From: an uncultured Jannaschia sp.
GTDB lineage: Bacteria; Pseudomonadota; Alphaproteobacteria; Rhodobacterales; Rhodobacteraceae
Reading direction: 5' to 3'
Assembly (NCBI RefSeq): GCF_947503795.1
Contig: NZ_CANNEZ010000001.1
Location: forward strand, 673,001-737,000
Length of the DNA stretch: 64,000 nucleotides
Below the pieces are notes generated by a model. It worked only from the letters and a program-made list of their open reading frames with translations. It was not told where the DNA came from and ran no database searches. Shown here one piece after another: positions 6,329 to 9,262 of this stretch. Both the position numbers and the translations under genes were made by a program. Numbering within the stretch: position 1 is the stretch's first letter; every line of letters starts with the position of its first letter.

Positions 6329-6847
6329 GTGAAACGGCCTATCCTCCTCCACCCCGATCCGCGCCTGAAGAAGGTCGCCGAGCCGGTCCCCGACCTCTCG
6401 GACGCGCTCCGCGCGCTGGCCGACGATATGCTCGAGACGATGTACGATGCGCCGGGCATCGGGCTCGCCGCGCCGCAGGTGGGGCAGGGGGTGCGGTTGA
6501 TCGTGCTCGACTGCATCAAGGAGGAGGGCGAGGCGCCCCGTCCTCTCGTCATGTTCAATCCGAAGATCATCGCCGCCTCGGACGAGATGTCGTCCTACGA
6601 GGAAGGCTGCCTGTCGATCCCCGATCAATACGGCGAGGTCACGCGACCGTCCGAGGTGACCGTTAACTGGATCGACCGCGACGGCGCCGAGCGGTCCGAG
6701 GACATGGCCGGGCTCTGGTCGACCTGCGTCCAGCACGAGATCGATCATCTCGACGGGACGCTCTTCATCGACCACCTGAAGCCGCTGCGGCGTCAGATGA
6801 TCACCCGCAAGATGGTCAAGCTGAAGCGCGAGCTGGCCCGTGGCTGA
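6329..6847 (+). CDS. def: Peptide deformylase (complete active site)
   Basis: A 172-residue polypeptide deformylase, which removes the formyl group from nascent N-terminal formyl-methionine. All three motifs are intact: GIGLAAPQ (43-50), EEGCLSIP with the metal-ligand Cys94, and HEIDH with His136, Glu137 and His140. The likely start is GTG at 6329 (read as VKRPILLHPDPRL); the frame is open upstream to 6002, but that part has no family resemblance. This is the copy expected to do the housekeeping job, together with fmt downstream. Confidence 0.93.
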   Translation: MKRPILLHPDPRLKKVAEPVPDLSDALRALADDMLETMYDAPGIGLAAPQVGQGVRLIVLDCIKEEGEAPRPLVMFNPKIIAASDEMSSYEEGCLSIPDQYGEVTRPSEVTVNWIDRDGAERSEDMAGLWSTCVQHEIDHLDGTLFIDHLKPLRRQMITRKMVKLKRELARG

Positions 6848-7280
6848 GGTCTTCCGCCCCCGGACGCGCGCGCGGCTGGCGGATGGCGAGGTCTGGGGCG
6901 TGCCGGTGAAGATGCACTGGATCGACGCCGCGGGGCAGGACGCTCCTCCAGCGGGCCTTCTGGCCGATGCGTGGCGGGTGGTGGCGGACACGCTGCCCGA
7001 CGCGATGGCGATCGAGGGCGGGGCCGAGGGCGCGGCCTTCTGCATTCTCCATCGCGGCGAACAGGGCATCTGGCTGCTTATGGATTGGTGGGCGCATGCC
7101 GACATCCTCTGCCAGCGGCTTGCCCGCGCGGATGTCGGGGCGACGCTCTTCGAGAGCGTGGACGAGCGCCCGCTTCTCGCCTGCGTCTGGGAACTGGAGG
7201 TCATCGAGGCCGAGCGCCTCGCGTGGATCGAGCACATGATGCGACCCTCCCCCAACCTCGCCGCCTGGCGCGCGGCGTGA
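6840..7280 (+). CDS. Conserved unknown protein between deformylase genes
   Basis: A 146-residue product with GTG start, overlapping the first deformylase gene by eight bases and the second by four, so it is translationally coupled to both. I do not recognise the family. It is soluble, tryptophan-rich and acidic (for example MKMHWID-like opening and a WLLMDWWAHADIL stretch near the middle) and ends in a proline/alanine tail. Its fixed position inside the deformylase cluster suggests a role linked to translation or N-terminal processing, but this is inference from context only. The last stretch ERLAWIEHMMRPSPN is probably helical. Confidence 0.75.
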   Translation: MAEVFRPRTRARLADGEVWGVPVKMHWIDAAGQDAPPAGLLADAWRVVADTLPDAMAIEGGAEGAAFCILHRGEQGIWLLMDWWAHADILCQRLARADVGATLFESVDERPLLACVWELEVIEAERLAWIEHMMRPSPNLAAWRAA

Positions 7281-7726
7281 TCCTCGGGATTCGCCTGTAT
7301 CCCGATCCGGTTCTCGCCGAGATCTGCACGCCGGTGACGGGTGACGTCACGGGGCTGGCCCGCGACATGCTCGACACGATGTATGCCGCACCGGGGCGGG
7401 GCCTCGCGGGGCCGCAAATCGGCGTGACCGAACGCATCTTCGTCATGGACGCGACGTGGAAGGAGGGACTGCCCGATCCGCGTGTCTTCGTGAACCCGGT
7501 GATCACGGGAACCGAGGGCGAGCAGATAAACGAGGAGGGATGCCTCTCGATCCCCGACACGCCGCGACGTGTCCTGCGCCCCCGGCGCGTCGTGCTGGAA
7601 TTCGACGGCCCGGGCGGCATCCGTCGCGAGGAGGCGTTCGAGGGCTTCGCCGCCGCCTGCGTCGCGCACGAGATGGACCATCTCGACGGCATCCTGATCC
7701 TCGACCATCCCGAGGCTCCGGAATGA
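7277..7726 (+). CDS. Second peptide deformylase family protein
   Basis: A 149-residue deformylase homologue, shorter at the C terminus than the first copy (it stops soon after the HEMDHLDG helix). The metal and catalytic residues are kept: EEGCLSIP with Cys89, and HEMDH with His131, Glu132 and His135. Motif 1 is GRGLAGPQ instead of GxGLAAxQ, one substitution in the substrate pocket. It is therefore probably active, perhaps with altered peptide preference. It has a GTG start overlapping the preceding stop by four bases, and its own stop overlaps the ATG of the third copy (ATGA). Confidence 0.88.
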   Translation: MILGIRLYPDPVLAEICTPVTGDVTGLARDMLDTMYAAPGRGLAGPQIGVTERIFVMDATWKEGLPDPRVFVNPVITGTEGEQINEEGCLSIPDTPRRVLRPRRVVLEFDGPGGIRREEAFEGFAAACVAHEMDHLDGILILDHPEAPE

Positions 7727-8199
7727 GTGGCTTCGTCCCTTGGCCCGACCCTCGGCTGCGTACGAAAGCGGCCCCGGTCGGAACGGTCGATGACGAGGTG
7801 CGCGCGATCTGGCAGCGGATGCTCGATGCGATGTACGCGATGCCGGGCGTCGGGCTGGCCGCGCCGCAGATCGGCATCCTGCGGCGGATCGCCGTGGTCG
7901 ATGCGGGCGAGGGGCCGATCCGGCTGGCCGATCCGATCGTGCTCCATTCGAGCGTCGAGATGCGCGAGCACGACGAGGCCTCCCCGAACCTCCCCGGCGT
8001 GTCGGCCCGGGTGAAGCGGCCCCGCGCGGTCACCGTTACCTATCTCGACGAGACCGGCACGCGGGTCCGCCGCGATTTTGTGAAGCTGGAGGCGACGAGC
8101 GTGCAGCATCAGATCGACCACCTGGACGGTCGGATGTACTTCGACCGGCTCAGCCGGACGAAGCGCGACATGCTGCTTCGGAAGGCGCGCAAGGCGTGA
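7723..8199 (+). CDS. Degenerate peptide deformylase homologue, probably catalytically inactive
   Basis: A 158-residue full-length deformylase-fold protein. Motif 1, GVGLAAPQ (42-49), is perfect. At the place of EGCLS it reads EASPNLP, so the metal-ligand cysteine is Ser87. At the place of HEXDH it reads HQIDH, so the catalytic glutamate is Gln130. The two histidines (129, 133) remain. Loss of both the Cys ligand and the general base should abolish normal deformylation, yet the frame is intact and overlaps the second copy by four bases, so it looks maintained. It may bind peptides or regulate the active copies. Confidence 0.88.
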   Translation: MSGFVPWPDPRLRTKAAPVGTVDDEVRAIWQRMLDAMYAMPGVGLAAPQIGILRRIAVVDAGEGPIRLADPIVLHSSVEMREHDEASPNLPGVSARVKRPRAVTVTYLDETGTRVRRDFVKLEATSVQHQIDHLDGRMYFDRLSRTKRDMLLRKARKA

Positions 8200-8347: not shown

Positions 8348-9262
8348 ATGAGGATCGTGTTCATGGGCACACCGGATTTCGCCGTGCCGGTGCTGGACGC
8401 GCTGGCCGGGGCCGGGCACGAGATCGCCTGTGCCTACACCCAGCCGCCCCGTCCTGCCGGGCGCGGCAAGAAGGATCGACCCTCGCCGGTGCAGGTCCGG
8501 GCCGAGGCTCTGGGGATCGAGGTCCGCGCGCCGCGCTCGCTTCGGGACGAGGCCGCGCAGGCCGACTTCGCGGCCCTCGATGCCGATGTCGCGGTCGTCG
8601 TCGCCTACGGTCTAATCCTGCCGCAGCCCGTCCTCGACGCGCCGCGCCTCGGCTGCATCAACGTCCACGCCTCGCTCCTGCCGCGCTGGCGCGGGGCGGC
8701 GCCGATCCACCGCGCGATCATGGCGGGCGACGCGCGCACAGGCGTGTGCATCATGGCGATGGAGGCGGGGCTCGACACCGGGCCGGTCCTGATGCGCGAG
8801 GGCACCGACATCGCCCCCTCCGACACCAGCGGCGACCTGCACGAGCGTCTGGCGGAAATGGGCGCGCGGCTGGCCGTCGCGACCTTGCCGCAGATCGAAC
8901 GCCTTTCGCCCGTGATCCAGCCCGAGGACGGCGTCAGCTACGCCGCCAAGATCGACAAGTCCGAGGCCGCGCTCAACTGGAGCTGGGGCGCGGATGTCGT
9001 CCGCCGCCAGATCAACGGTCTGTCGCCCTTTCCCGGCGCCTACGTCACGCGCGACGGCGCGCGCCTGAAGCTGCTGCGCGCCGCACCCGCGCGCGCCGTG
9101 GCCGAACCGGGATGCGTGGCCGACGCGCCGGGCCTCGTGATCGGCACCGGCGACGGCGCGGTCGAACTGCTCGAGGTGCAACCGGCCGGGCGCGGCCCGG
9201 TTTCGGGCGCCGATTTCCGAAACGGCGCGCGGCTGGCACCCGGCGACCCGCTGGAGGGCTGA
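8348..9262 (+). CDS. fmt: Methionyl-tRNA formyltransferase
   Basis: A 304-residue enzyme that formylates the initiator Met-tRNA using 10-formyl-tetrahydrofolate. [16 protein letters not shown] is the typical opening. [20 protein letters not shown] carries the catalytic Asn/His and the SLLP signature, and [12 protein letters not shown] gives the conserved Asp. The C-terminal OB-like tRNA-binding domain follows from about residue 205. GGAGAG lies upstream of the ATG. It sits 148 bases after the deformylase cluster, in the same direction; formylase and deformylase are commonly linked. Confidence 0.96.

Follow-up and report, generated by a model that had tools for sequence, protein, structure and literature searches.

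The window, i.e., the whole 64,000-nucleotide stretch analyzed here, carries on its forward strand a cluster of genes encoding three members of the peptide deformylase (PDF) family, which are all the copies found by a genome search and each of which matches PF01327. The first gene, def1 (6329–6847), encodes a canonical deformylase of 172 aa with the motifs GIGLAAPQ, EEGCLSIP, and HEIDH. Between def1 and def2 an uncharacterized open reading frame of 146 aa (6840–7280; no Pfam or NCBIfam match at E 0.001) is wedged by overlaps; its relatives were found at only two other loci among 291, one from the same genus (69%) and one from Palleronia aestuarii (52%). The second paralogue, def2 (7277–7726), starts with GTG, overlaps the upstream frame by 4 bp, and encodes a protein with both the Cys and the Glu and without a C-terminal helix. 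The third gene, def3 (7723–8199), is an intact frame from ATG at 7723 to TGA at 8199. The first-pass annotation had placed this deformylase homologue of 158 aa and its frame correctly, and the four-base overlap which it reported with copy 2 is present as ATGA (7723–7726), in which the def2 stop (TGA, 7724–7726) and the def3 start are joined. It also called the gene full length; the frame is indeed intact, but the C-terminus of the Def3 protein is shorter than that of Def1. Downstream lies fmt (8348–9262), a frequent neighbor of def3 recognized from its sequence and context, which we take to encode methionyl-tRNA formyltransferase.

Membership of Def3 in the deformylase family is clear from its match to PF01327 (E 2.5e-37; 128.3 bits, cut-off 22.8). 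Motif I, GVGLAAPQ (residues 42–49; 7846–7869), conforms to the GxGxAAxQ of active peptide deformylases (EC 3.5.1.88). Motif II (residues 84–91; 7972–7995) reads DEASPNLP and aligns with EEGCLSIP of copy 1, which places Ser87 (codon TCC, 7981–7983) at the metal Cys; instead of EGCLS, Def3 proteins read E-A/G-S-P-N/C. Motif III, QHQIDHLDG (residues 128–136; 8104–8130), keeps both His and contains HQIDH in place of HEXXH, so Gln130 (CAG, 8110–8112) aligns with the catalytic Glu of HEIDH in copy 1. Both substitutions had been proposed in the earlier annotation, and both hold. Its further statement that GVGLAAPQ and both His are unchanged is right for the His pair and for the pattern GxGLAAPQ, but copy 1 itself reads GIGLAAPQ and copy 2 GRGLAGPQ. 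Beyond that annotation, three linked changes were found in the active site: Pro88 for Leu, Asn89 for Ser, and Ser126 for the second Cys (Cys129 in E. coli). The window Def3 passes NCBIfam TIGR00079, an equivalog model named “peptide deformylase” (114.1 against a cut-off of 103.95), which suggests that automatic annotation will give such proteins this name; its equivalog status is questionable because the catalytic residues are missing. The protein stays below the cut-offs of NF001159 (119.8 vs. 125) and NF009484 (124.6 vs. 190). The C-terminal α-helix predicted at residues 145–157 (8155–8193) agrees with type 1B, and the substituted motifs II and III agree with type 3, which a passage of PMC5591237 defines by changes in conserved motifs, the trees described below having contained no type 3 references.

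Chance does not explain the substitutions in the window, as the homologues that were read show these residues again. Among 203 distinct Def3 proteins scoring above 200 bits, G42, G44, Q49, E85, S87, P88, S126, H129, Q130, D132, and H133 are identical in every one, and site 89 carries Asn in 192 of them and Cys in the other 11. An identical invariance is seen in the 138 proteins kept under loci from similarity searches free of motifs; the other 65, kept under loci from the motif-pattern scan, are a biased sample because the scan uses motif patterns (each protein was assigned by the locus it was kept under, and a few genomes may enter twice, since some are present under both a code and a name). 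Proteins matching fewer than 91 model positions were excluded from this reading. No orthologue with an intact EGCLS or HEXDH was found among the 203 Def3 proteins, nor among the 138 motif-free ones. Other family proteins at the same loci carry the Cys in 369 of 371 cases, and the two exceptions are an eroding Def3 (L264) and a contig-cut one (L266), both below 200 bits and outside the 203. As regards frameshifts and decay, no internal stop was found in the Def3 places listed in the family search, nor in the 20 of the genus; “1 TGA” in two profile-search rows (the window and G058) arises where the match extends past the frame end, and the frame at L257 is open to its end. The L264 protein (genome G224, 187 bits) has kept Ser87 and Gln130, but positions 42 and 132 have become Ser and Asn, respectively, and many conserved residues are altered (e.g., SQHQANH) without a stop; this may be a sign that selection is relaxed in one lineage.

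Selection was also followed at the codon level. In 187 coding sequences, including those from motif-scan loci, codon 87 is AGC in 120, TCG in 35, AGT in 17, TCC in 8, TCT in 4, and TCA in 3; since all six Ser codons occur there, the Ser87 codon keeps changing silently. Six Ser codons also occur at site 126 in the same set. Pooled dN/dS was 0.238 for def1 (21 pairs), 0.257 for def3 (23), 0.310 for fmt (23), and 0.380 for def2 (10), and each of the 23 def3 pairs stayed below 0.6. These values come from 23 independent close pairs with Fmt dS of 0.08–0.6, calculated by NG86 with GC bias ignored, and some def3 dS are near 1; an earlier pass on distant pairs was set aside as near saturation. The codon-level selection is clear: def3 is under purifying selection and its substitutions are not a product of recent decay. 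The earlier view of the gene as selected rather than decaying is thus upheld by the invariance in 203 of 203 proteins, by dN/dS, and by the lack of stops among the listed places. Mean pairwise identity was 0.69 in the first 109 Def3 proteins and 0.68 in the Def1 set.

Def3 is widespread in its family, taken here as Rhodobacteraceae in the wide sense. A protein search of 295 genera of the family gave matches in 287. By hand count, approximately 250 genera have Def3 (judged from scores, with contig-cut copies and the one eroding copy included), 37 have other deformylases only, and 8 more have no match; def3 is therefore dispensable, being lost or absent in 37 (+8) of the 295 sampled genera. In the genus sample Def3 was present in 20 of 20 genomes, and the closest named relatives of the window protein are from an uncultured Jannaschia (79%) and J. 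rubra (75%). Named carriers belong to Rhodobacterales save one odd case and some general labels. The odd one is a contig titled Nocardioides marinus DP1N28-1 (L204), an actinobacterial name, with a def3 match of 66% identity, and it is probably mislabelled. Outside the family, no Def3 was found in a class sample of 385 genomes, 5 of them in the family (best outside match 182 bits vs. 275–296 inside), nor above 200 bits in a phylum sample of 249 genomes, where the best outside score among the matches listed (E 1e-45 or better) was 178.1 bits and the 14 listed family genomes all carry Def3; both sets are samples and not whole collections. All of the 25 outside loci read from the class sample (L127–L151) carry Cys and Glu. 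Among viral contigs, 91 stretches matched a motif and none encodes a relative.

In a tree of 90 proteins, Def3 forms one group (SH-aLRT 99) on a stem of 0.81 changes per column, and with midpoint rooting it groups with alphaproteobacterial PDFs and Def1, not with Def2. Removal of the three motifs leaves Def3 as a single clade (bootstrap 100/SH-aLRT 99); Def1, one group in the 90-protein tree (93), is recovered in only 14% of bootstrap trees without the motif columns. A profile built from non-motif columns placed 185 untrained Ser87 proteins all above 369 Cys proteins (medians 223 vs. 107 bits). The lowest Ser87 protein scored 134.1 and the highest Cys protein 133.9 bits, and this 0.2-bit gap is so slight because the bottom three places among the Ser87 rows are taken by two divergent Def3 and by the eroding copy. 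On a combined Def1 and Fmt tree (111 loci with and 23 without Def3, 21 outgroup rows; a quick tree with long-branch warnings), the presence of Def3 needs approximately 12 changes, and well supported branches force at least 5 of these. The deepest ingroup branch of this tree includes one Def3 carrier, L258. Def3 was probably gained before the ancestor of the family and then repeatedly lost; the change count alone cannot separate gain from loss, and the early-origin reading leans largely on that single deep carrier.

The gene order of the cluster is conserved. Of 246 family loci (the count after removal of known repeats), 108 are arranged def1-def2-def3-fmt, 99 def1-def3-fmt, 21 def1-fmt, and 18 in other or cut arrangements. 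At 115 of 131 def2-def3 junctions the two genes overlap by exactly 4 bp, and at loci without def2 the overlap of def1 and def3 is 4 bp in 44 of 101; in these counts starts were set by a script rule, outgroup loci are included, and some genomes are counted twice. As def1 is the constant neighbor and def2 is often missing, def3 goes with def1 and fmt rather than with def2.

The AlphaFold2 model of Def3 (pLDDT 95.1) has the deformylase fold. In a structure search with this model, all 50 listed chains were PDFs with Z of 24.1–26.2, and the top row, tied with other PDFs, was the E. coli enzyme with actinonin (1lru_C; Z 26.2, rmsd 1.3, 157 residues aligned). At nine positions Def3 and Def1 are each fixed for a different residue (at least 93% and at least 85%, n = 202 Def3, with L264, L266, and L256, which contains X, dropped): W30, M40, S87, P88, N89, L90, S126, Q130, and L151. 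All of these except W30 and L151 lie in or beside the active-site motifs. The groove glycines G42 and G44 are present in 202 of 202 Def3 proteins, and in a plant deformylase the backbone at or beside the motif I glycines holds the ligand, as described in a part of PMC3101196. The predicted C-terminal helix of Def3 matches the ribosome-binding helix of the E. coli enzyme, which binds the tunnel exit through it and competes with methionine aminopeptidase (PMC8712518, in part). Six ribosome-contact residues are given for E. coli PDF in section 12 of PMC12690207 (L149, K150, R153, K157, K160, and R163). At the positions of K150, K157, and K160, Lys or Arg is found in 202 of 202 Def3 proteins and is lost in most Def2. 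At the other three positions of Def3, L149 is Leu in 32 of 202, R163 is Lys or Arg in 38, and R153 is Met in 184 and Arg in 7, Def1 also having mostly Met there.

Taken together, the substitutions are the same in every intact relative that was read and thus a deformylase-shaped, probably non-cutting protein seems to be preserved; Def3 is very probably a selected protein that is not a deformylase. The mechanism that we propose in full, which we hold to be plausible though somewhat short of probable, is that Def3 imitates a deformylase without hydrolyzing; it would dock at the ribosome and bind or cover nascent chains that carry formyl-Met. Def3 is an old deformylase paralogue, probably predating the last common ancestor of the family, in which the metal Cys, the neighboring Leu, the catalytic Glu, and the second active-site Cys were replaced once and then frozen. 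The predicted fold, the glycine motif for peptide binding, Gln49, Glu85, the two metal His, and the basic C-terminal helix have been retained. Like Def1, it might dock at the tunnel exit of the ribosome and bind or cover the formyl-methionine end of nascent chains, leaving the formyl group on. By covering these ends uncut it would gate Def1, whose access to some chains, together with that of methionine aminopeptidase, would be delayed or gated. Homology, invariance, purifying selection, gene order, and the predicted fold are what the data show, whereas inactivity, docking, formyl-Met binding, and the gating role are inferred. Against inactivity, the invariance of the His pair could indicate that a metal is still bound and that part of the chemistry is preserved; against docking, the basic helix could have other partners, and only three of the six contact positions are kept.

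On a further reading, Def3 would be a natural ribosome-bound substrate trap, a dedicated reader of N-terminal formyl-methionine holding the formyl group on chosen nascent chains. Replacement of Glu by Gln in HEXXH gives substrate traps, and the HQXXH trap mutants of metalloproteases share with Def3 this change in the same motif. The mutants are a laboratory change, whereas the change in Def3 is evolutionarily fixed and joined to the loss of the metal Cys. We consider this trap reading rather unlikely; if it is true, a bacterium would possess a regulated step that separates deformylation from the removal of methionine. Deformylation of N-termini is generally regarded as constitutive, and a conserved Cys/Glu-less homologue in the def-fmt cluster of a large family suggests that deformylation may be regulated or read. 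Purple-bacterial light-harvesting polypeptides keep formyl-Met, and the idea that Def3 might protect it there was considered and rejected: PF00556 is found in 17 of 37 Def3-less genomes, and in 13 of the 33 with a completeness of 90% or more and a contamination of 5% or less, so genomes can have these genes without Def3.

The first of the other explanations, which we consider unlikely, is that Def3 still hydrolyzes. It would do so through a Ser/His/His site or another metal, or by using Ser87 otherwise, as a weak deformylase for special conditions or as an amidase of another substrate. An example of such a condition is oxidative stress, as both active-site Cys are gone. His129, Asp132, and His133 are invariant in all 203 proteins, which is more than a metal-free scaffold seems to need. 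The cysteine loss extends beyond the metal site, too, since 0–1 Cys is found in 120 of 138 Def3 and 3–4 in 221 of 232 Def1. The metal Cys, the neighboring Leu, and the catalytic Glu changed together, however, with no intermediate among the 574 family sequences. Leu91 of the E. coli enzyme supplies a backbone NH to the formyl group, and Pro88 of Def3 presumably removes this NH that binds the formyl oxygen, which also counts against hydrolysis. The same applies to the changed motif II Cys, as the metal ligands of PDF are this Cys and the two motif III His (PMC5591237, in the part concerned). According to passages of PMC12690207, stress roles have been proposed for motif-changed type 3 PDFs, and some PDFs with altered motifs are active, e.g., that of T. 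brucei.

The second explanation is that Def3 serves as a regulatory subunit of Def1 or Def2, i.e., a heteromer in which a dead half tunes the active half. This would fit the common cluster and the 4-bp overlaps with def2 or, where def2 is missing, with def1. However, def2 is absent from 99 of the 246 loci, and the fixed changes point to the active site and not to a new surface, save W30 and L151. A search for Def1-Def3 co-evolution found no excess of loosened Def1 columns in Def3-less genomes, with 5 against 9 in the (longer) Fmt control (23 Def3-less vs. 111 Def3-bearing loci). Such a subunit role seems distinctly improbable. The first-pass annotation had suggested a peptide-binding or subunit-modulating pseudoenzyme; the invariance and dN/dS agree with its selected, substituted paralogue, while copy 2 is unlikely to be a special partner of Def3 because the 99 loci are def1-def3-fmt without def2.

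Very improbable, in turn, is a decoy role, in which Def3 would take up natural deformylase inhibitors and thereby shield Def1. According to a passage of PMC12690207, natural PDF inhibitors probably occur more widely than is known, and the groove glycines are kept. Actinonin, though, grips the metal via its hydroxamate, as a part of PMC3101196 describes, while Def3 has lost the metal Cys, and presence in most sampled genera is broader than expected of a resistance gene. That Def3 is a decaying, functionless duplicate, as its absence from several lineages, the eroding L264 copy, and def2 or def3 fragments with stops in one genome (G157) might suggest, is scarcely credible given the residues that are invariant across 203 sequences, the dN/dS values under 0.6 in 23 of 23 pairs, the single clade, and no stops among the listed Def3 places.

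When compared to known systems, Def3 is close to the type 1B enzyme E. coli Def (1lru), with which it shares the whole fold at 34% identity, motif I, the two metal His, and the predicted C-terminal helix with Lys or Arg at three ribosome-contact sites. It differs in Cys90 to Ser, Leu91 to Pro, Ser92 to Asn, Cys129 to Ser, and Glu133 to Gln; its C-terminal tail is shorter and the three other contact sites are mostly lost. The second PDF copies of S. aureus and S. pneumoniae are reported, in the parts of PMC12690207 and PMC5591237 that concern them, as inactive or weak “type 3” proteins. Like Def3, they are motif-changed accessory paralogues beside another deformylase. By their descriptions, Def3 is set apart from them by the C-terminal helix and by one family-wide fixed signature, and it groups with alphaproteobacterial PDFs and Def1 rather than with Def2 in the midpoint-rooted tree. 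Section 7 of PMC12690207 reports PDF gene clusters in 98.1% of Rhodobacterales reference species and three genes in 62.5%, and these are evidently the same loci as def1-(def2)-def3-fmt. The loss of Cys and Glu in one cluster member is not described in sections 7, 12, and 16 or in further passages of that survey, and the passages of PMC3024229 name B. subtilis deformylases only. Inactive deformylase copies and the Rhodobacterales clustering were thus known; no description of the conserved Cys/Glu-less lineage was found in open-license literature. The lineage bears on the question why Rhodobacterales cluster their deformylase genes, the rationale for which is called elusive in a passage of the 2025 survey (PMC12690207).

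It is also worth noticing how Def2 behaves. It evolves fastest in the cluster (dN/dS 0.38, 10 pairs), and the ribosome-contact positions are lost in most of 114 Def2 proteins. In 55 of 55 Def2 proteins assigned by BLAST, an Arg (GRGLA) stands where the E. coli enzyme has Ile44, an S1′ residue; 12 loci centered on other genes, with genomes already counted, were left out of this count. In the 90-protein tree and in the fixed-difference and contact analyses, the Def2 rows were picked by the GRG motif, and the motif is therefore no result there. Def2 is perhaps an accessory deformylase with another pocket. In one Def2 (L244), Lys replaces the catalytic Glu (HKLDH), which adds one further, isolated candidate for a copy without activity.
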